From contig NZ_AP024452.1 in the NCBI RefSeq assembly GCF_016865485.1, positions 6,284,501 to 6,348,500 on the forward strand: DNA of 64,000 nucleotides, in the 5' to 3' direction. Position 1 is the first letter of the stretch. Each line of letters begins with the position of its first letter. The notes under the pieces are model-generated. The model saw only the letters and a program-made list of their open reading frames with translations. It was not told the origin of the DNA and did not search any database. The DNA is from Luteitalea sp. TBR-22. GTDB lineage: Bacteria > Acidobacteriota > Vicinamibacteria > Vicinamibacterales > Vicinamibacteraceae. This document shows, one piece after another, positions 1,265 through 24,329 of the stretch. A program made the translations under genes and the position numbers.

Positions 1265-2650
1265 GTGAACTGGCTGCTCGTCGGGATCCTCGCCTACCTC
1301 GCCGTCCAGATGGCCATCGGCCTGTGGGTGTCGCGACGCGTGAACAACGAGGTGGACTACATCCTCGCGGGCCGCACGCTCGGGCTCGGCGTGGCCTCGT
1401 TCTCGATCTTCGCCACATGGTTCGGCGCCGAGTCGATTCAGGGCGCCGCGGGAACGATGTACACCGACGGCCTGTCGGGCGCGTCGGCCGATCCGTTCGG
1501 CTACGTGCTCTGCATCCTGCTGGTGGGCCTGATCTTCGCGCGGCCGTTGTGGAACGCCGGCTTCACGACGTTCGGCGACCTGTTCCGCGCCCGGTACTCC
1601 GCCGGCGTGGAGAAGTTCGTGATCCTGCTCATCGTGCCGACGTCGATCATCTGGGCCGGCGCGCAGGTGCGGGCCTTCGGCAACGTGCTCTCGCACGCGT
1701 CGGGGCTGTCGATCGAGGCGGCGATCACCGCCGCGGCGCTGTTCGTGATGCTCTACACGACGATCGGCGGCCTGCTCGCCGACGCCTGGACCGACGTGGT
1801 GCAGGGCATCGCCGTCATCGTCGGCCTGATCGTGCTGCTGGCGCACCTGATGATCACCGGGGACCTGCAGGCGGCGTGGGCGCAGGTGCCTGCGGAGCGG
1901 CTGGCGATCCTCGGCGACGGCAGCGTGCCCTGGTACGAGATGCTCGAGGCGTGGACGGTGCCGGTGGTCGGTTCGATGCTGGCGGTGGAACTGCTGTCGA
2001 GGGTGCTCGGGTGCAGGTCGGCCGACACGGCGCGGCGGGCCTGTCTGGCCGGCAGCGGGTTGTATCTCGCCGTCGGGGCGATCCCGGCGCTGATCGGACT
2101 GTGCGGGCCGTACCTGGTGCCCGGGCTCGAGGACGGCGAGCAGTTGATCCCGGCGCTGGCCAGCCTGCACCTCGGGCCCTGGTTCTACGTGGCGTTCGCC
2201 GGGGCGCTGGTCTCGGCGATTCTCTCCACCGTCGACTCCTGCATGCTCGCCGGCTCGACGCTGGTGACCCACAACGTGCTGCTGCCGTTGTGGCCCGACC
2301 TGTCGGAGCGGGCGCGGCTGCGCGCCTCACGGCTCGGGGTGCTGACGATGGGGGTGATGGCGTGGGGACTGGCGCTGCGGACCGAGAGCATCAAGGATCT
2401 CGTGGAGATTGCCTCCGCCTTCGGCAGCGCCGGCGTGTTCGTGGTGGCGTGCTTCGGGCTGTTCACGACAATCGGCGGTCCGCTCAGTGCGTGGGTGGCG
2501 TTGTGTACGGGCTTCGTGGTGTGGGGTGCGGGGGCGTTGTTGGCCTGGCCGGCGCCATACGTGACGGCGCTCGCGTTGTCGGTCGTCGGCTACCTGGCCA
2601 CCTCACAGGTAGGGCGAGCCACCGCGCCGTTGGCCGACGTGTCTCACTAA
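1265..2650 (+). CDS. Sodium:solute symporter family (SSS) transporter
   Basis: 461 aa integral membrane protein starting at GTG 1265. It has about 12-13 hydrophobic segments and the SSS hallmarks: an N-terminal TM, the loop V-S-R-R-V-N-N-E-V-D-Y-I-L-A-G-R near residue 20, A-T-W-F-G-A-E-S, and S-A-I-L-S-T-V-D-S near residue 320, the TM8-like sodium-site region. It should import a solute (sugar, amino acid or carboxylate) with Na+; the substrate is unknown. The last residues overlap the start of a repeat of family B (2604-2681), so the C-terminal tail is partly repeat-encoded. No other transport gene is adjacent. Confidence 0.88.
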   Translation: MNWLLVGILAYLAVQMAIGLWVSRRVNNEVDYILAGRTLGLGVASFSIFATWFGAESIQGAAGTMYTDGLSGASADPFGYVLCILLVGLIFARPLWNAGFTTFGDLFRARYSAGVEKFVILLIVPTSIIWAGAQVRAFGNVLSHASGLSIEAAITAAALFVMLYTTIGGLLADAWTDVVQGIAVIVGLIVLLAHLMITGDLQAAWAQVPAERLAILGDGSVPWYEMLEAWTVPVVGSMLAVELLSRVLGCRSADTARRACLAGSGLYLAVGAIPALIGLCGPYLVPGLEDGEQLIPALASLHLGPWFYVAFAGALVSAILSTVDSCMLAGSTLVTHNVLLPLWPDLSERARLRASRLGVLTMGVMAWGLALRTESIKDLVEIASAFGSAGVFVVACFGLFTTIGGPLSAWVALCTGFVVWGAGALLAWPAPYVTALALSVVGYLATSQVGRATAPLADVSH

Positions 2651-2681
2651 CGGCGCGGTCGGAGACCGCGCCCTACCTGTG
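2604..2681. repeat. Full-length family B repeat bounded by CACAGGTAGGGCG / CGCCCTACCTGTG
   Basis: A 13-bp perfect inverted repeat (2604-2616 with 2669-2681) encloses a second hairpin, GGCGCGGTC-GGA-GACCGCGCC. It overlaps the 3' end of the symporter gene and stops 14 bp before the next start codon. This is the best-preserved complete copy of family B in the window. Confidence 0.85.
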
Positions 2682-2695
2682 TGGTGGCCTCGCTC

Positions 2696-3604
2696 ATGAA
2701 TCACATCGTCCGCGCGTTCGCCGTGTGGGTCGGGATCTACGCCGGGTGCCTCACTGCGTTGGGAGCGCTCTGGTTCTGGAAGGGCCCAGAGGACTCGACC
2801 ATCCCGGAGGAGGGCGCGCTGCTCGGCGGCACGATTGCGCTGTGGTTCGCGGTGATGTTCGGCCGTGCGGCGGTGAAGCGGCTGCGCGAGCGGGCCGCCG
2901 TCGGGCGGGCCGACGATGTGGATCGTCCTGTGGACGGCGAGTTCGTGGTGGCACGGGGCACACTGCAGTGCGCGGCTCCGCTCGTGTCGCCGTTCACGGG
3001 CGTGCCGGTGGCCGCGTACAACTACAAGGCGTGGCGACGCGAGGTGCGCGGGCCCGGTACCAAGACCAGCGTGGAGATCGCGTACTGGTGGGGCGAGGGG
3101 TCGGCGCCGTGTTCGCTGATGACGCGGCGCGGCACGCTGGAGTTGCGGAGCCGTCCGTGGCTCGACTTCTGGTCGGCGGGCGTGCCGAACACCGACGAGT
3201 CGCGCGGGCACTTCTCGCGGTTCATGCACGGCGTGCAGGCGGAGCCGCAGCAGGGCGGCATCGTGGTCCCGGGCTTCGAGTGGGACGCGGGGCTCGACGG
3301 CCCGTTGCGGCGTGACAAGGCAAAGACGACGCACGTGCCGCTCGAGGAGTTGCAGTTCACCGAGTGGACGCTCTCGCCGGGCGAGCCGGTGGTGGTGATC
3401 GGTCGCTACTCGGCGCAGCGCGGCGGGGTGATCCACGACGACCGGAAGGGGCGTCCGCTGCGCGTGCTGAAGGGGGATGCCGAGACCGTCCGCGCGGCGC
3501 TCGGCCAGGGCGCAACCGCATACGGCGTGCTGTCGCTGCTCGCGCTCGGTGTGTCGGCCTTCTTCGCCGCGTCCATCCTGCGCTGGCACGACCTGGCGTT
3601 CTGA
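2696..3604 (+). CDS. Membrane protein with GIDE-like domain, function unknown
   Basis: 302 aa. I use the ATG at 2696; an upstream GTG at 2681 lies inside the repeat. Hydrophobic segments occur at about residues 5-26 and 40-58, with another at the C-terminus (about 275-297). In between is a soluble region beginning G-E-F-V-V-A-R-G-T and L-V-S-P-F-T-G-V-P-V-A-A-Y, which resembles the SPxTGxPC-type segment of bacterial GIDE-like (E3 ubiquitin ligase GIDE family) proteins, though the usual cysteine is replaced. There is no RING domain. Recognition is tentative. The gene is probably monocistronic, with repeats on both sides. Confidence 0.6.
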   Translation: MNHIVRAFAVWVGIYAGCLTALGALWFWKGPEDSTIPEEGALLGGTIALWFAVMFGRAAVKRLRERAAVGRADDVDRPVDGEFVVARGTLQCAAPLVSPFTGVPVAAYNYKAWRREVRGPGTKTSVEIAYWWGEGSAPCSLMTRRGTLELRSRPWLDFWSAGVPNTDESRGHFSRFMHGVQAEPQQGGIVVPGFEWDAGLDGPLRRDKAKTTHVPLEELQFTEWTLSPGEPVVVIGRYSAQRGGVIHDDRKGRPLRVLKGDAETVRAALGQGATAYGVLSLLALGVSAFFAASILRWHDLAF

Positions 3605-3644
3605 GGGGGTCGGGCTGCGGCTTACGGCGCTGGAACGTCAGGAA

Positions 3645-3671
3645 GGTAGGGCGCGGTGTCCCACCGCGCCG
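3645..3671. repeat. Half-length family B hairpin
   Basis: GGTAGGGCGCGGTG-TCC-CACCGCGCC forms a hairpin between the convergent 3' ends of the membrane protein and the PAPS-reductase-family gene. It could terminate transcription, but no T tract follows. Confidence 0.75.
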
Positions 3672-3741
3672 TTGGTCCCTCCTCGCCGTACTCATGCGTC
3701 GATCTCCGCTCCGCGGCAAGAGCGCCCGGTCATTCCCGCTG

Positions 3742-4551
3742 TCAGAGGTCGCACACCAGGCACGCCTGCTCGTCGTCGTCATCTCCCGCGAGCACGTCGA
3801 GGAGGCGATTGGAGGCGGGCGTCCTGTCGCGCCCGGCAGCGGCGACGATCTCGTCGCGCCGTGCCAGCAGTGCCTCGAGCGACTCGCCCTGCGACCACGT
3901 GTACTGGCGGCCCTGCATGCGCGTGGCCTCGAAGCCGGCCTTCTGCTCCAGCGCGACTGCCTGAGCGAACAGCTCGGGGTGCCGATCGGCCAGGCCCACC
4001 CATTCGGCCTTGCGCTGGAAGAAGCAGAAGTAGCAGCCGGAGCGGGAGCGCCACTCGTAGTAGGCGGGCAGTCCGAGGCCGGCGTCCTCGAGGATGCGGT
4101 GCACGTCGCGCAGGTCGATGCCGTGCTGGCGGAAGGGGAACACGCTGGTGATGTTCGGCCGGGTGGAGACGTAGCCCTCGCGGTGCTCGTCGGCGCGCAG
4201 GCCGACGTAGCTCACGGCCGCGTCGTCGCCCAGCCAGGCCTCGAGCGGTGCCAGCTTCATCTGACGGGTGCACCAGCGCATCTGGGGCGACGGCAGCGTG
4301 CCGCGGTACACCTCCATCCAGTGCTCGAACGGCCGCCCGGAATTCAGCCTCTGGATAGGCTTACCGAGAAACGCTTCCAGCCTCAACAGGTACTCGTAGG
4401 TCTCGGGGAGCTCCGCGCCGGTGTCGCATAAGAAGTACTCCATCTGCGGCACGCGGTCGCGCATGAACACGGCAAGTGCCGCGCTGTCCTTACCGCCGGA
4501 GAGCCCGAGCACGTGGCGAGGGGTGCTGCCCATGACGACGTCGTCTACCAT
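3742..4551 (-). CDS. PAPS reductase / PP-loop ATP pyrophosphatase family protein (DndC-like)
   Basis: 269 aa. The PP-loop S-G-G-K-D-S at residues 18-23 binds ATP for adenylation, followed by C-D-T-G-A-E and the family's C-T-R-Q-M-K motif. The C-terminal half carries C-Y-F-C, and the protein ends in C-L-V-C-D-L, so there are several potential metal or sulfur-handling cysteines. This pattern fits the phosphoadenosine phosphosulfate reductase superfamily outside assimilatory CysH, the group that includes the DNA-phosphorothioation protein DndC. Its GC content looks like the chromosome average. It is divergent from an HNH nuclease gene only 55 bp away, which suggests shared regulation and perhaps a two-gene DNA modification/restriction or tRNA/DNA-sulfur function; that is inference. 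Confidence 0.8.
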   Translation of the reverse strand: MVDDVVMGSTPRHVLGLSGGKDSAALAVFMRDRVPQMEYFLCDTGAELPETYEYLLRLEAFLGKPIQRLNSGRPFEHWMEVYRGTLPSPQMRWCTRQMKLAPLEAWLGDDAAVSYVGLRADEHREGYVSTRPNITSVFPFRQHGIDLRDVHRILEDAGLGLPAYYEWRSRSGCYFCFFQRKAEWVGLADRHPELFAQAVALEQKAGFEATRMQGRQYTWSQGESLEALLARRDEIVAAAGRDRTPASNRLLDVLAGDDDDEQACLVCDL

Positions 4552-6199: not shown

Positions 6200-7252
6200 C
6201 TACCGATCTCGGTGCATGTCGAAACCGGTGGCCTCGCCAAATGCGGACACCACCTCGAGCCAGGCAGCGAGGAGCGCGCGCAACTCTCTCCTGGGCATCG
6301 CGCGCACCTGGATGACCGTGGTCAGCCGCCACTCGCTCAAGGCCTGTCGGACCGTCAACTGCGGCCATTCCATGAAGGGCCGCACCGACGCATCGCCGGG
6401 AGGCACGGGCGCCGACTCGAGGCAGAGCGCAGACAGTTCCCACTCGCGCAACGGCGCCGACGGCGCGATGTCCACGCAGGCGCGGATCTCGAACCCGTTC
6501 CCGCGGAACGCGGCGGCGAACAGCGCACCGGTGCCCGTGCGACGCACCTCGCCGAGGGTGGCGCCCAGGCCCTCGAGCAGCTCCTCGAGGTCGTACCAGG
6601 TGACGGTCTCGAACACGTGGTCGATTGCGCCGCGCCCCCGGCGACCACCGGACGCCTGCGGCGCCTCGTCCGCGTGCGTGGGCCAGGGACGCTCGTCGTA
6701 CGACTGGCCTGGCGCCGGCACCTCCTCGAGCGCAAGCTCCATCGGCGTGCCCGGCGAGATGCGCAGCTGATGACGGTCGTCGAGCAGGCACCGCACCGCG
6801 CGAGAGTCGTCGCCCCGATTGCCGCCGAAGATCGGCACCCACAGCCGGTACAGCACCTGCGCCACACGACCGTCCACATACACGAGCCGACACCAGTGAT
6901 ACCCGCCAGGGCGTCCCTCCGCCGAGCGCACGTCCTCGACGTGCACCTGGTGCCCGAGCACGTCGACGTGCACGTGCCAGCGCTGGCGGCTGGCGATCGG
7001 CGGCGCGATCCACTGGTGCGGGAGGTGTTCCGGGCTGGGCACGCAGGTGGCGATCACGCGGCCCGGCCGCAGCCCGTCGGCCGCGGCCACACGCTGCACG
7101 TCGGCTTCGGTGGTGAGCGGGTCGCCGCCCGTCGGGCGGTTGCGGTAGGCGCCAGGCCCCGGGCTGGCAAGCGAGAGCCAGCGCGTCGAACAGGGACAGT
7201 CGCGGAAGGCGTGGGGCGAGGGGCGGAAGTGTTGGTCAGGGTCGTCGGTCAC
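6200..7252 (-). CDS. Hypothetical protein
   Basis: 350 aa if begun at GTG 7252; the open frame continues upstream to 7426, but that part has repetitive Pro/Ser/Arg composition typical of non-coding frames. The N-terminus has D-C-P-C-S-T-R-W, a CxC that could bind metal. The body is rich in Trp, His and charged residues and has no signal peptide or membrane segment. I do not recognise a domain. It lies 39 bp downstream of the start of the HIT gene on the same strand and could precede it in one transcript. Confidence 0.6.
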   Translation of the reverse strand: MTDDPDQHFRPSPHAFRDCPCSTRWLSLASPGPGAYRNRPTGGDPLTTEADVQRVAAADGLRPGRVIATCVPSPEHLPHQWIAPPIASRQRWHVHVDVLGHQVHVEDVRSAEGRPGGYHWCRLVYVDGRVAQVLYRLWVPIFGGNRGDDSRAVRCLLDDRHQLRISPGTPMELALEEVPAPGQSYDERPWPTHADEAPQASGGRRGRGAIDHVFETVTWYDLEELLEGLGATLGEVRRTGTGALFAAAFRGNGFEIRACVDIAPSAPLREWELSALCLESAPVPPGDASVRPFMEWPQLTVRQALSEWRLTTVIQVRAMPRRELRALLAAWLEVVSAFGEATGFDMHRDR

Positions 7253-7528
7253 ACTCGGGGTACGACGAGCCCGCGAACGGTCTGACAGCGTTGGAGGTGG
7301 GCCGAGTCGCCCACGGCTTACAAGTCGCTGCGGAAGCACATGGGCGGGGGAACCCGGGGCACTGGCGGGATCGGCCGCAGAGCCGCTTCGGGGCGAGCTC
7401 CTGACCGTCGCCATCGATGAGGCCATGGGCTGGCACCGGCCGGCTCGACACGACCCGGCCGTGTTCGTCGGCCATTGGCGACTCTCGCCTCCCCTCGAGC
7501 AGGAGGGCGGTGGGAGTATTCTGAATCA

Positions 7529-7738
7529 ATGCGCACCTTCAGCGTGGTCATCGAACGTGACCCGGATACCGGCCTGTTCGTCGGCCATGTTCCGGGCTGG
7601 CCGGGCGCCCACACGCAGGGTGAGACCATCGAGGAGTTGCAAGCCAACCTGCAGGAGGTGAACGGCATGCTCCTCGAGGACGGCGAACCGAAGTTCGAGT
7701 CCGAGTTCGTGGCCGTACAGACGATCCGGGTTGCGTGA
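7529..7738 (+). CDS. hicB: HicB family antitoxin
   Basis: 69 aa from ATG 7529. It contains F-S-V-V-I-E-R-D-P-D-T-G-L-F-V, G-W-P-G-A-H-T-Q-G-E-T-I-E-E-L and N-L-Q-E-V, the HicB partial RNase-H-like fold that neutralises the RNA-cleaving toxin HicA. It has no C-terminal DNA-binding extension, so it is the short form. The gene for its partner follows directly but is broken, so the antitoxin is probably an orphan relic. No strong Shine-Dalgarno sequence is visible. Confidence 0.85.
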   Translation: MRTFSVVIERDPDTGLFVGHVPGWPGAHTQGETIEELQANLQEVNGMLLEDGEPKFESEFVAVQTIRVA

Positions 7739-7855
7739 GTGGGCACCCTGCCCACCCTGAGACCCCGTGAGGTGGTGGCCCTTCTGCACGACCTGGGCTT
7801 CGCAGAGGTCCGCCACCTACGGGCAAGAGGCGGCCTGCGCCGGTCGCGCTCACAA
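7739..7855 (+). pseudogene. hicA toxin remnant
   Basis: Directly after hicB the frame reads L-R-P-R-E-V-V-A-L-L-H-D-L-G-F-A-E-V-R-H-L, the first helix-strand of HicA (a double-stranded-RNA-binding-like mRNA interferase). The catalytic histidine region (normally G-S-H) reads instead R-A-R-G-G-L-R-R, and the frame then runs into a family B hairpin at 7862. The toxin is therefore truncated and very probably inactive. Confidence 0.7.
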
Positions 7856-7861
7856 TGGCTG

Positions 7862-7889
7862 ACGGCGGGGTGGGACACCCCGCCCTACC
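7862..7889. repeat. Half-length family B hairpin
   Basis: ACGGCGGGGT-GGGAC-ACCCCGCCCTACC follows the hicA remnant and lies 45 bp upstream of the broken metallophosphoesterase copy. It marks the point at which hicA similarity is lost. Confidence 0.8.
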
Positions 7890-7933
7890 TCTGTGGAGCG
7901 CGGGTCGTCATAAGCCCGTGCTGAGGGAGGCGC

Positions 7934-8317
7934 GTGGGGTACGACATCATCGGCGATGTCCACGGCGAGGCCACGATGGTCGAGGCGCTGCTCGGCAGGC
8001 TCGGGTGCCGCGACACCGGCGGCGCCTGGCGACACCCGGACCGGATCGTCGTCTTCGTCGGCGACTTCATCGACCGCGGGCCGGAGCAACTCCGCGCCGT
8101 CGGCATCGTCCGACGCATGCTCGACGCCTGATCGGCGCGTCAGCCGAGCGGGTTGGGCCAACGGCGCGATGGGACATCGCGCCCTACCTCTGTGGGGGTG
8201 AACGGCATCGCCTGGCACACGCCGCGAGACCATGGGTCGGGCGACTGGTGCCGCACGCGCCTCGGGAAGAAGGGCGAGACGAACCGCCGGTGACACGCGC
8301 GGTTCCTCGAGGAGGCC
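7934..8317 (+). pseudogene. Truncated, repeat-interrupted copy of the metallophosphoesterase at 10075
   Basis: The sequence from GTG 7934 matches the intact gene at 10075 almost base for base, including its GGAGG ribosome-binding site and the motifs G-D-V-H-G-E and G-D-F-I-D-R-G. After V-R-R-M-L-D-A a TGA stops the frame at 8131. The next about 70 bp contain a family B repeat in place of the G-N-H-E metal-binding segment. Similarity resumes at about 8200 (N-G-I-A-W-H-T-P-R) and fades near 8317. The copy lacks the whole C-terminal half, so it cannot make an active phosphatase. Confidence 0.85.
8161..8188. repeat. Family B hairpin inside the phosphoesterase pseudogene
   Basis: ACGGCGCGAT-GGGAC-ATCGCGCCCTACC replaces codons of the duplicated gene that specify M-G-N-H-E in the intact copy. 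This is the one place in the window where an uninterrupted relative shows that the repeat arrived in, or replaced, coding sequence. Confidence 0.85.
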
Positions 8318-8338
8318 TTCTGCAAGTCCGTCAGTGTC

Positions 8339-9370
8339 TCAGCGTCGGGATGTGGCCGTACGCGCGCGGGCGCGGGAGCCGAACGCCCAGCCAGCGACCA
8401 TCAGCGCCAGGGCCCAGCCCGGCGGTTCCGGCACATCCGAGGTCTCGCCCATGTAGTTGGCGCCGGACGCCGCGGTCATGCTCCAGCCATGCACGAGGTC
8501 GCCACGCGCATTGGTGACCGTCAGAGGCCCGGTCCAGACCAGCGTCTTGGCGAAGTCGGCGGTGAAATCGACGCGCGAATAATCACCGGGAGCATGAAGG
8601 AACGGGTAATAGAGCTCGTTGATGTCCACATAGGCGCTCATCAACAACTCCATGCCGAACCGGATCGTGGTGAACTGCTCGTTGCGCTTCACCACAAAGG
8701 TCGCGGGGATGGGCACGCCGACGTCCGGGTCGCGGTCGAAGGTCACGAAGCCGGCCTCGTCGACGTGGTGTTCGAACGAGCCGCTCGCCGCCACCGCGTC
8801 GTCGAGATTGCCGGTGAGATTCAGCGCACCCTGGACGTGCGCCACGCCGCGCGTGCCGCCGATCGTCACGCCGCCACCCCAGCCGCCGTCGAGCGTGATG
8901 TTGCCGTGCCCGTAGTACACGTCGTCGGTCTCGGTCTCGGGGAAGGTGAATTCCAGGAGGTCGATCCAGCTGGCGGTCGCACGTCCACTGAATCGCACAG
9001 ACGGGTTGTTCAGCAGGCTCACGGGATTCGACAACGTGCGATCCAGGTTCACGGACATGCCGACACCCAGTTCCCAGGCGGCGTCCGGATCGTTGGCCTT
9101 TGCCCCCGCCTTGGCGAATACCCGCGCAAACCCGGAGACATCGCCGCTCTCGAACGAGACCGTCGGACTCTCGGACGTGATGATGCCAGGGTCGCCCCCC
9201 ACGCCCACGCGCGCTTCGAACCATCGCGGGGGCACCGACGGCGGACGTTCGAGCTCGAAGTTCACGCCAGCCAGCGTGTGGGTGAACACGAGCGCCGCCG
9301 CACTGGCGGGTTGTGCCCAGCCGGATAGTGTGAGAAGCGCCAGCATCGTGCAGCCGAATCGATTCACCAT
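8339..9370 (-). CDS. PEP-CTERM sorting-domain secreted protein
   Basis: 343 aa from ATG 9370, with a GGAGAGG Shine-Dalgarno 7 nt upstream. An N-terminal signal peptide (hydrophobic L-A-L-L-T-L, cleavage near A-S-A) is followed by about 290 residues rich in Gly, Ser and beta-forming residues. The C-terminus has V-P-E-P, a hydrophobic helix (W-A-L-A-L-M-V-A-G-W-A-F) and an Arg-rich tail, the PEP-CTERM signal recognised by exosortase EpsH/XrtA-type enzymes for surface or exopolysaccharide-linked export. The passenger domain is unrecognised. No exosortase gene lies in the window. Confidence 0.85.
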   Translation of the reverse strand: MVNRFGCTMLALLTLSGWAQPASAAALVFTHTLAGVNFELERPPSVPPRWFEARVGVGGDPGIITSESPTVSFESGDVSGFARVFAKAGAKANDPDAAWELGVGMSVNLDRTLSNPVSLLNNPSVRFSGRATASWIDLLEFTFPETETDDVYYGHGNITLDGGWGGGVTIGGTRGVAHVQGALNLTGNLDDAVAASGSFEHHVDEAGFVTFDRDPDVGVPIPATFVVKRNEQFTTIRFGMELLMSAYVDINELYYPFLHAPGDYSRVDFTADFAKTLVWTGPLTVTNARGDLVHGWSMTAASGANYMGETSDVPEPPGWALALMVAGWAFGSRARARTATSRR

Positions 9371-9625
9371 CGGATCCTCTCCACGCACGCGTCACGGGGG
9401 AGCAGCCACGGTCTCGAAACCGCGTACCGCGTCGGGCGCCCGTTTCTGTTGTGCCGAGGATGGTGCGATAGGACTGACCCCACCGTCAACTCACGACAGG
9501 TGCTGGATGTCACGACCCGTGCTGTTGAACGCGCCTTGAATACGCGGGTCATCCGCGCCGAGAGCCGGCGTGTCATGAGCGTCACCAGCGTCACCACGCG
9601 GACGACGATCTTCGACAAGGCTCCT

Positions 9626-9921
9626 CTACGCCTTCGGCCAGTGCTGCTCGATGTAGCGGACCATCCGCGGCGCCGCGAGTTCGTCCTTCGAATGCACCCG
9701 CGGCTTCTGCACTGGCAGGTGCCCGCTCTCGAACATCTAGTGCAGCAGGTCCTCGCCGGTCTCCGTGGCGCGCATGCCGCTCAGGTCGTTGTCCAGCGAG
9801 ACGATGTCCCACGTGAACCGCGTGAGCAGGTAGCGGAAGTCCTCGGGCGTGCGCACCGGGTACCAGCCGTCGGGCGCCGGGCGCCAGTCGTCGAGGTAGA
9901 GCCAGCGGGGGCGGTCGGCAT
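9626..9921 (-). pseudogene. Cyclic-phosphate-processing receiver-domain (cREC) protein, disrupted
   Basis: The minus strand encodes W-L-Y-L-D-D-W-R-P-A-P-D-G-W, V-R-T-P-E-D-F, S-L-D-N-D-L and, after a TAG at 9737-9739, M-F-E-S-G-H-L-P and V-H-S-K-D-E-L. This matches the small receiver-like cREC family in order and length. In relatives the TAG position is typically Trp (TGG), so one base change would create the stop. The ATG at 9921, with a good AGGAGAGG ribosome-binding site, is one base out of frame with the body, at a run of five C's. Two lesions (a C-run frameshift and a nonsense codon) indicate a pseudogene or two sequencing errors. Confidence 0.7.
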
Positions 9922-10028
9922 CAGGCGATCCTCTCCTGCGAGGTATCGGCCGGACCGTCGGGCGGCGTCAGGCGCGGAGCGCGCGAGTCGTCGTAATCTT
10001 GGGCGCAGAACGGCGGGCCAGCCCCGGA

Positions 10029-10050
10029 CCGTCGACCTGAAGGTCGACGG
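10029..10050. repeat. Family A palindrome
   Basis: CCGTCGACCTG/AAGGTCGACGG, a perfect inverted repeat 17 bp upstream of the ribosome-binding site of the metallophosphoesterase. It occupies the same relative position as a family B repeat does upstream of the truncated copy. Confidence 0.85.
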
Positions 10051-10074
10051 CTACGCCCGTGCTGAAGGAGGCGC

Positions 10075-11046
10075 GTGGGGTACGACATCATCGGCGACGT
10101 CCATGGCGAAGCCGCCATGCTCGAGGCGCTGCTCCGCGACCTCGGCTACGAGGACCGCGGCGGCACCTGGCGTCATCCCGAGCGCACCGCCGTCTTCGTC
10201 GGCGACTTCATCGACCGCGGGCCCGAACAGCTCCGCGCCGTCGGCATCGTCCGCCGCATGATCGACGCCGGGGCGGCGCTCGCCGTCATGGGCAACCACG
10301 AGCTGAACGCCATCGCCTGGCACACGCCGCGAGACGATGGGTCGGGGGACTGGTGCCGGACGCACGCCGGCGACAAGGGCAAGAAGAACTTCCGACAGCA
10401 CGCGCGGTTCCTCGACGAGGTCGGCGGCGACCTCGCGCTGCACGACGAGCTCGTCGCGTGGTTCCGCACCCTCCCCCTCTGGCTTCACCTCCCCGGCTTC
10501 CGCGTCGTCCACGCCTGCTGGCACGAGCCGCAACTCGACGTCCTCGCCCGCGAACTGCCCGACGCCCGTCTCCCCGACGATCGCCTCGCCGCGTCGCTGG
10601 TGAAGCCGCGCACCCCCGAGGAACACGCCTCCCCGGCCTTCGCGCTGGCCCACGCCGTGCAGACGGTGACCTCCGGCCTCGAGGCATCACTCCCCGAGGG
10701 GCGCACCTTCGCCGATCGCGACGGCAACCCGCGCCGCGACGTCCGCCTGAAGTGGTGGGATGCGAGCGCGACGACGTTCCTCGAGGCGGCGCTGGTGCTG
10801 TGCGAGGCGGAGCGCGCGGCGATGCCAGATCTGCCGATTCCCGTCCACGCCCGCGTGCGCGTCGAGGGCGCGCCGGTCTTCTTCGGCCACTACTGGCTGC
10901 CCGGCGGCCCGGCGCTGTCGTCGCCGCAACTGACCTGCCTCGACTTCCAGGAAGAGCGGCGCCCGATCCTCACGGCCTACCGGTTCGACGGGGAGACGGA
11001 GCTGAGCGCCGGGAAATTGGTCAGCGTGGGGCCGCGCAGGTCCTAG
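10075..11046 (+). CDS. Metallophosphoesterase (calcineurin-like; PrpE/ApaH-like)
   Basis: 323 aa starting at GTG 10075 behind AAGGAGG. The dinuclear-metal motifs are all present in order: G-D-V-H-G-E near residue 6, G-D-F-I-D-R-G near 42, G-N-H-E near 73, and a downstream G-H-Y with histidines. It probably acts as a protein serine/threonine phosphatase or a diadenosine-polyphosphate hydrolase; the large alpha-helical C-terminal part is not diagnostic. It is cytosolic. A partly deleted duplicate lies 2 kb upstream in the same orientation. Confidence 0.85.
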   Translation: MGYDIIGDVHGEAAMLEALLRDLGYEDRGGTWRHPERTAVFVGDFIDRGPEQLRAVGIVRRMIDAGAALAVMGNHELNAIAWHTPRDDGSGDWCRTHAGDKGKKNFRQHARFLDEVGGDLALHDELVAWFRTLPLWLHLPGFRVVHACWHEPQLDVLARELPDARLPDDRLAASLVKPRTPEEHASPAFALAHAVQTVTSGLEASLPEGRTFADRDGNPRRDVRLKWWDASATTFLEAALVLCEAERAAMPDLPIPVHARVRVEGAPVFFGHYWLPGGPALSSPQLTCLDFQEERRPILTAYRFDGETELSAGKLVSVGPRRS

Positions 11047-22723: not shown

Positions 22724-23638
22724 ATGCGTCTGTTCCACACCCTGCTCGCCGCGTCGGCCGCCGCCGCGCTGGTGGTCGCCGGATCGGTGGCCCCCGAGGC
22801 GTCCCTGTCGGCCGCCGGCGCCGCGCTCGCGCAAGGGGGCCCGTACAAGAACCCCATCGCGCTTCAGCTCTACAGCTTCCGCGAAAGCTTCAAGACCAAC
22901 GGCGTGCCCGCGACGCTGGCCAAGGTCAAGGGCATGGGCTTCACGCACGTCGAGCTCGCCGGCACCTACGGCCTGACGCGCGAGCAGTTCAAGACTGAAC
23001 TCCAGAAGGCCGGCCTCACGCCGATTTCGATGCACACCGACATCAAGGCACTGGCCGACCCTGCCGCCTCGGCCAAGCTGCTCGACGACGCGAAGTTCTT
23101 CGGGCTGAAGTACGTGGGCAACGCGTGGTTCCCTCATGAAGGGACCTTCGACGAAGCCGACGCCAAGGCGGCGATTGCGGCCTTCAACGCGGCCGGCAAG
23201 AACGTCGCCGCCGCCGGCATGCAGTTCTTCTATCACCCGCACGGGTTCGAGTTCGCGCCTGGCACGGCCAACCGGACGCTGTTCGACATGGTGCTGGCGC
23301 AGACCGATCCCAAGGCCGTGAAGTTCGAGCTCGACATCTTCTGGGCCCACCATGGCAGCGCCGACCCGGTGGCCCTGCTCAAGGCGCACCCCGACCGGTT
23401 CGTGCTCACGCACATGAAGGACATGAAGCCGGGCACCAAGAAGGACTTCACCGGCCACGCGCCCGACGACACCAGCGTCGCGCTCGGCACCGGCGAGGTG
23501 AACGTCAAGGGCGTCGTCGAGGCGGCCCGCAACACCAGCGTGCAGTGGCACATCATCGAGGAGGAGTCGCACGAGCCGGAGAAGAACGTGCCGGCCGGGC
23601 TGGCGTACCTCAAGTCGCTGGCCGCGGGGCCCAGGTAG
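22724..23638 (+). CDS. Secreted sugar phosphate isomerase/epimerase (AP endonuclease 2-like TIM barrel)
   Basis: 304 aa from ATG 22724 behind AAGGAG. A signal peptide ends near residue 36 (A-A-L-A-Q). The mature part begins I-A-L-Q-L-Y-S-F-R-E-S, and has G-F-T-H-V-E-L-A-G-T, F-F-Y-H-P-H-G-F-E, E-L-D-I-F-W and L-T-H-M-K-D-M-K. Together these give the Glu/His/Asp metal-site set of the xylose-isomerase-like TIM-barrel family. Exported members are common in Acidobacteriota and are thought to act on sugars or inositols in the periplasm. Substrate is unknown. Confidence 0.85.
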   Translation: MRLFHTLLAASAAAALVVAGSVAPEASLSAAGAALAQGGPYKNPIALQLYSFRESFKTNGVPATLAKVKGMGFTHVELAGTYGLTREQFKTELQKAGLTPISMHTDIKALADPAASAKLLDDAKFFGLKYVGNAWFPHEGTFDEADAKAAIAAFNAAGKNVAAAGMQFFYHPHGFEFAPGTANRTLFDMVLAQTDPKAVKFELDIFWAHHGSADPVALLKAHPDRFVLTHMKDMKPGTKKDFTGHAPDDTSVALGTGEVNVKGVVEAARNTSVQWHIIEEESHEPEKNVPAGLAYLKSLAAGPR

Positions 23639-23644
23639 ACACAG

Positions 23645-23746
23645 GGAGGGCGCGGTGCCCCACTGCGCGCAGGTAGGGCGCGGTGTCCCACCGCGCCGTC
23701 AGTTGAGCTGACGGACAAACGGCGCGGTCGGAGACCGCGCCCTACC
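23645..23746. repeat. Family B repeat: one full copy plus a half copy
   Basis: A degenerate half copy (23645-23671) is followed by a full copy from GGTAGGG at 23672 to CCCTACC at 23746, which encloses two hairpins. It fills the gap between the isomerase and acetyltransferase genes. Confidence 0.8.
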
Positions 23747-23762
23747 TACCTTCAGGGACCGC

Positions 23763-24329
23763 ATGGCTGCACCGCTCCACCTGCTCGACGCCCTGCCGAT
23801 CCGGACCGAGCGGCTGCTCCTGACCAGGCTCGACGCCTCGCACCTGCCGGCCCTGGCGGCGATGCTGGCCGACCCGATCGTGATGCGCTTCTTCCCGCGC
23901 GTCATGACGCTCGACGAATCGCAGCAGTGGCTCCGGCGGACGATCGACCGCTATGCCCTGCACGGCACCGGGCTGCTGGCCGTGCTGCGCGAGGACGCCC
24001 GTGGTGGCGATCCCGAGTTCCTCGGCGACTGCGGCGTGCTGGTGCGCGACTTCGGCGGCCGCACGCACCTCGAGCTGGGGTACCACTTCGCGCGGCACGC
24101 CTGGGGTCGCGGCTATGCCACCGAGGCGGCCGCGGCGAGCCTGCGGCTCGGCTTCGGCGCCACCGATGCCCGCGAGATCGTGGCGCTGATCCGTCCCGAG
24201 AATGCCCCGTCGCAGCGGGTCGCCCGGCGCCTGGCGATGCACCGGGAGGGGGCCGTGCTGCACAACGGCCTCGTGCACGACATCTGGCGGATCGGCCGGC
24301 AAGAGGCCGGCGCACTCGCCCTACAATGA
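23763..24329 (+). CDS. GNAT family N-acetyltransferase (RimJ/RimL-like)
   Basis: 188 aa. It begins with the family's T-E-R-L-L-L-T-R-L segment and V-M-R-F-F-P. The acetyl-CoA-binding loop A-R-H-A-W-G-R-G-Y-A-T-E-A is near residue 110, and P-E-N-A-P-S-Q-R-V-A-R-R-L follows. This is the ribosomal-protein-type Acetyltransf_3 subgroup, which acetylates protein N-termini or small amines. The next gene starts 12 bp downstream, so they may be cotranscribed. Confidence 0.87.
   Translation: MAAPLHLLDALPIRTERLLLTRLDASHLPALAAMLADPIVMRFFPRVMTLDESQQWLRRTIDRYALHGTGLLAVLREDARGGDPEFLGDCGVLVRDFGGRTHLELGYHFARHAWGRGYATEAAAASLRLGFGATDAREIVALIRPENAPSQRVARRLAMHREGAVLHNGLVHDIWRIGRQEAGALALQ

Follow-up and report, generated by a model that had tools for sequence, protein, structure and literature searches.

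The window, a 64,000-nt stretch of the Luteitalea sp. TBR-22 chromosome, holds two copies of a gene for a calcineurin-like phosphoesterase, one intact and one dead, together with REP units of two families, A and B. The product of the intact gene matched PF00149 with 41.7 bits (cut-off 21.5). The sequence-only reading had described a pseudogene at 7934 and the gene at 10075 as alike on both sides of a repeat, a claim open to the objection that the similarity outside the repeat might be too weak for common descent. The alignment was strong and the claim stands: the left blocks (7911-8138 and 10052-10279) were 85% identical over 228 nt and the right blocks (8199-8315 and 10304-10420) 84% identical over 117 nt. 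The translated dead copy was 71% identical to the intact protein over residues 1-116 (E = 8.6e-45), with two internal TGA codons. We set the left start of the homology at 7914/10055, since in the intact copy a family A repeat occupies the letters just before this point. The features are:

7864..7889, + strand: family B unit upstream of the dead copy, of a subtype unlike that of the inserted unit
7914..8128, + strand: 5′ block of the dead copy, with 20 nt upstream common to the intact gene, start codon at 7934 and codons 1-65
8129..8157, + strand: left part of the replaced block, with TGA at 8129-8131, CGGCGC at 8133-8138, then 19 nt without a source
8158..8189, + strand: family B REP unit, with a 9-bp stem, a 3-nt loop and its GTAG foot on the minus strand
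8190..8195, + strand: tail of the unit, weakly conserved (the family consensus is weak past 8189)
8199..8315, + strand: remainder of the dead copy, in frame with the 5′ block, with TGA at 8291-8293; similarity stops at 8315
10030..10054, − strand: family A unit, GTAG foot on the minus strand, ending where the homology of the intact copy starts
10055..11046, + strand: intact copy with the shared upstream 20 nt; calcineurin-like phosphoesterase of 323 residues, start at 10075
10270..10303, + strand: intact-gene segment replaced in the dead copy, with GNHE codons at 10291-10302

Only these two places in the genome matched the phosphoesterase protein (protein search, E up to 0.001). A single position differs between the copies in the 20 nt before the start codon, and from this near-identity we infer that both derive from a single segment, as opposed to a bare reading frame acquired twice. 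Among 59 relatives, no match to the phosphoesterase extended over more than 138 of its 323 residues, and neither of the genes flanking the dead copy was found in any of them; these flanking genes matched no Pfam or NCBIfam family. The stretch 6200-9388, with the dead copy and its neighbours' genes, was found in this species only. At the left edge of the homology, or just before it, both copies have a REP unit (family B at 7864-7889, family A at 10030-10054), and a role for REP units in the gene duplication is possible. An Rfam search of 7700-10500 (E up to 1) found no curated family at the repeat and one sub-threshold match elsewhere, to ASdes within the intact gene (10417-10478, minus strand; 30.6 bits, under the gathering score of 40).

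The interval between the aligned blocks (8128/10269 and 8199/10304) measures 70 nt in the dead copy and 34 nt in the intact gene. Gene bases were lost here, a point that the sequence-only reading had proposed to check. The net gain of 36 nt keeps the reading frame, so the dead copy reads on into NGIAWHTP. The GNHE motif of the lost segment is present in the intact gene and in all 22 aligned homologues, which were drawn from 80 homologous loci kept from a collection search (best identity 52%; top rows mainly proteobacterial; the search may omit near relatives of the window's genome). Since GNHE is universal in this set, the dead copy is the changed one. The replacement of the GNHE segment, which had been ascribed to a hairpin at 8132-8200, is real. 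The family B unit itself covers only 8158-8189, and 8129-8157 is not family B by sequence. Short direct repeats, the other sign that had been looked for at the edges, gave nothing: the longest across the insert is CGCCTG (6 nt, at 8125 and 8209), and this carries no meaning because 33% of window sites share a 6-mer likewise.

The left part of the replaced block is less readily accounted for. The CGGCGC at 8133-8138 is identical to 10274-10279 of the intact gene, and 8129-8157 had no match elsewhere in the genome among the 40 of 198 candidates scored. A reading of this part as decayed gene sequence is not supported, as 45% of shuffles aligned equally well to the lost segment. GTCAGCC at 8139-8145 equals the foot of four of 131 units; some common foot also occurred in 8% of shuffles and in 93 of 2206 29-mers of the window. 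Tentatively, 8139-8157 may be the foot and spacer of a lost left REP arm, with the foot at 8139-8145, and the insert would then be a head-to-head pair minus its left arm.

The hairpin at 8158-8189 had a z score of -4.3 and was equalled in 0/200 shuffles, so that chance is excluded; the fold of 8158-8195 on the GTAG strand had a z score of -4.5. The chromosome of 6,468,984 bases contains 189 family B copies at up to 3 mismatches and none of the reversed pattern, which excludes chance for the family as a whole. The consensus of 130 distinct copies is a stem-loop whose foot on one side reads GTAG, which in the available part of PMC3733652 marks an element as a GTAG-type REP. Family B is a REP element of this type: a palindrome of 20-40 nt with a GTAG foot, in high copy and mostly outside genes. 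Close pairs of units were oriented head to head in 39 of 52 cases. None of these 39 pairs had identical arms over the ten letters compared, compared with 6.9 expected by random pairing. In the head-to-head pairs of the window and the fetched stretches, one arm usually carries the loop CGGAG and the other GGGAC. Unlike arms are also on record for pairs of other REP families (PMC3733652, in the part available). Such pairs are REPIN-like, a REPIN being two inverted REPs that move as one; the dead gene, however, holds a lone unit with a putative left foot.

The inserted unit belongs to a subtype in which both sides of one stem pair are changed, with at least seven further copies among the fetched loci, and a copy 85 kb away matches it perfectly over 31 nt. 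The unit is therefore a copy that came from elsewhere rather than one formed on the spot. The neighbouring unit at 7864 is 89% alike over 35 nt and is disfavoured as the source, as closer copies sit elsewhere. Longer matches at C1:889803, C1:6136277 and C1:4234794 are further family B copies that lack the gene, and were set aside.

Two matches to the Y1 transposase family were found in the genome. The gene at C1:6430834-6431310 scored 96.7 bits against the NCBIfam model for REP-associated tyrosine transposases (cut-off 80), and family B units flank it on either side. The second Y1-type gene scored 76.8 bits, below the cut-off of 80, and adjoins family A units. Family A, with 114 matches at up to 2 mismatches and none for the reversed control, is a second REP family consisting of GTAG plus CGTCGACCTTCAGGTCGACG; it occurs in the window at 10030, 13756, 16301, 28035 and 41571, and also at the locus L004.

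Next to the 168 family B copies at up to 2 mismatches in this genome, the four congeners have 4, 0, 0 and 7. One of two further family members has a single copy, as many as its reversed control gave, and the remaining 54 genomes of the 60 have none. Family B has thus been amplified in this genome only, among the 60. At one orthologous site the difference can be read directly: between two genes, window positions 23633-23771 hold 139 nt that include a family B pair, compared with 12 nt at the same place in the genome G002. No family B unit was found at this place in G004. In G001 the place has 26 nt, against 85 nt here, with another hairpin, which ends in CTACC. We rejected the idea that a repeat supplies, through its GTAG, the stop codon of the gene ending at 23638, since that GTAG lies outside the unit.

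Placement relative to genes was scored for 129 of the 189 units, in the window and 74 stretches of the same genome (427,268 bases), with genes called by codon usage using our own gene caller and units near stretch ends excluded. The stretches were chosen around the best ~100 of the 189 places, fewest mismatches first, and diverged units are therefore under-sampled. Only five of the 129 units lay in called genes, whereas 1342 of 1500 random positions did so. The five do not include the dead phosphoesterase's unit, as the gene caller terminates that gene at the first stop codon. Among gaps of 60 nt or more, those with family B comprised 47 same-direction, 32 convergent and 2 divergent cases, and those without it 97, 20 and 56, respectively (divergent versus the rest, 2/81 against 56/173; Fisher 5.5e-9). 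The median distance from family B to the nearest gene 3′ end was 17 bp (79 gaps). A coding signal on both flanks was obtained for 24 of 94 elements, 12 convergent and 12 same-direction; this measure cannot find broken genes, because the known case at 8163 fails it.

We consider it likely (probability about 0.8) that, after the gene duplication, a family B element entered the upstream copy and removed the GNHE segment. The phosphoesterase gene would have been duplicated first, and the element would then have inserted into the upstream copy, with the DA codons on its left and the NGIAW codons on its right. Its entry would have left one full unit (8158-8189) and removed ~24-34 bp encoding the GNHE metal ligands, with the net gain of 36 nt. 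A GTAG REP of this kind would be moved as single-stranded DNA by its own transposase, as has been studied for TnpA-REP/RAYT of other species (PMC8266576 and PMC3116915, each available in part). The transposase encoded at C1:6430834-6431310 probably carried out the insertion. That a head-to-head pair entered and then lost its left arm, as the putative left foot would suggest, is conceivable and somewhat doubtful. The hairpin in the dead gene is best seen as the scar of a mobile element, with no separate function seen for it.

Several observations weigh against the REP-insertion reading. None of the 59 relatives has an orthologue of this locus by which the event could be dated. The edges of the insert are ragged, with the 19 nt left of the unit having no source, and a simple insertion would spare the bases of the gene. 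Hairpins are prone to illegitimate repair events, and a break or stalled fork could have been patched by copying another REP, primed by short homology, with loss of bases and no transposase. The lost gene bases, the CGGCGC shared with the gene at the left edge and the sourceless 19 nt are all compatible with such a repair. It is a serious rival, though we consider it unlikely: a short shared word is weak evidence at the G+C content of this genome, and the spread of family B in this genome only, with a REP transposase gene beside it, means that an insertion pathway exists. Units in called genes are rare (5/129), and the dead copy has additional lesions. Besides the TGA at 8129-8131 on the left edge of the insert, the dead copy has the TGA at 8291-8293 and has lost all homology past 8315, so the repeat may have landed in dead DNA. 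Death of the gene by a stop codon or truncation, with the repeat landing later in unselected DNA, has about an even chance of being the true order. The TGA at 8291-8293 and the loss of the residues after 116 are lesions independent of the insert, and units are rare in working genes, so that most survivors are expected in dead or non-coding DNA. Against this, the 5′ block keeps a coding signature, with dN/dS between the copies of 0.35 over the 65 codons before the insert and 0.88 over the 37 codons after it; the counts are too small to order events, and the values give no date for the death of the gene, since the conserved motifs also sit in the first block.

The view of family B as a fixed terminator hairpin, formed where it stands and never mobile, is very improbable. 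Its position near gene 3′ ends and its near absence from divergent gaps (2/81) agree with that view. However, the dead gene's unit belongs to a dispersed subtype, of which it is a copy, and is followed by no T run (a search for T-run hairpins, i.e. intrinsic terminators, in 7800-8350 found 0; the mean of shuffles was 0.2), the family is nearly absent from congeners, and REPs of other species show a like bias to gene 3′ ends (PMC3733652, in the part available). The sequence-only reading had taken the locus as direct evidence that family B repeats can move into or replace coding DNA and are not just fixed terminators. Its core is borne out: a family B unit sits where a duplicated gene lost coding DNA, the direction of the change is clear, and mobility is backed by the family B-bordered transposase gene, the sole amplification and the one orthologous site without the repeat. 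As worded, it went too far. The locus is not direct evidence of entry into a working gene, given that the copy carries further lesions, which may be older or younger than the repeat. Coding DNA is strongly avoided by the family; moreover, the bias to 3′ ends is also what a terminator would predict, even though no T-run hairpin accompanies the unit.

The five units in called genes offer a second view of REPs in coding DNA. Two sit 8 and 83 nt inside a called start (L164). One overlaps a gene end, where the frame crosses the unit and stops at a TAA within the following unit's foot (L140); in this gene (C1:4232800-4238300, positions 2802-3521 of the stretch) the last residues are encoded by the family B repeat. 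The remaining two lie in frame near the C-terminal end of the L172 gene (C1:659300-663300, positions 1861-3765, minus strand), which is open, encodes 634 residues and has an alpha-amylase domain (PF00128, 61.6 bits). The repeat-encoded residues 577-600 of the L172 protein are absent from the orthologues of all four congeners, which have ~10 different residues in their place; the alignment of two proteins from another genus is poor in this region and does not settle it. L172, which lies outside the window, is a better case than the dead phosphoesterase for entry of a REP into a frame that stays open. Taken together, the two loci could be read as a habit of this lineage, in which REP insertion often swaps target bases for the element and can stay in frame: ~60 nt would have come in for ~24 out in the dead gene, and ~24 repeat-encoded residues for ~10 in L172. 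We think so general a pattern improbable; if it held, REPs would supply working genes with short new stretches of protein.

Among known systems, family B is close to the GTAG-tagged REPs, as portrayed in the available part of PMC3733652: these share the stem-loop with a GTAG foot, the high copy number, the location in same-direction and convergent gaps and the mostly head-to-head arrangement, and they include pairs of unlike arms and some units inside genes, in frame. Family B differs in being a new sequence, in an acidobacterium, and in having an intact sister copy that shows the lost bases. With REPINs and their RAYT (PMC3116915, in part) it shares paired inverted REPs and one related transposase gene bordered by them; in contrast, the dead gene contains one unit and no pair, and none of the 39 pairs has identical arms. 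The REP and TnpA-REP of E. coli (PMC8266576, in part) likewise combine a GTAG foot with an HuH-type transposase, and TnpA-REP cuts single-stranded REP, whereas the stem and loop sequences of family B differ and its cutting is predicted. The palindromic elements of Rickettsia, named in the same part of PMC3733652, resemble L172 as in-frame palindromes inside genes; RPE-4 and RPE-6 differ in being CGTC-tagged.

REPs inside genes, in frame or at their ends, have been described for several species in the portion of PMC3733652 at hand, so the general point of REPs in coding DNA is already in print and the dead gene adds one example to the published cases. A literature search by title and abstract opening found no paper on REPs of this genus, and the part of the genome announcement of Luteitalea sp. 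TBR-22 available to us (PMC8852301) has no mention of REPs. What the present locus offers is a sister gene two kilobases away, from which the bases removed by a REP insertion can be read. In addition, two REP families, each beside a transposase gene and one of them amplified in this species only, make a usable system for REP movement. Relatives of the family B transposase are present in two congeners, with 62% and 59% identity. No related repeats were found with the former by the two short words used, and the latter (L211, in G004) has GTAG repeats with different stems on both sides, the repeat stems and the transposase looking as if they had diverged together.
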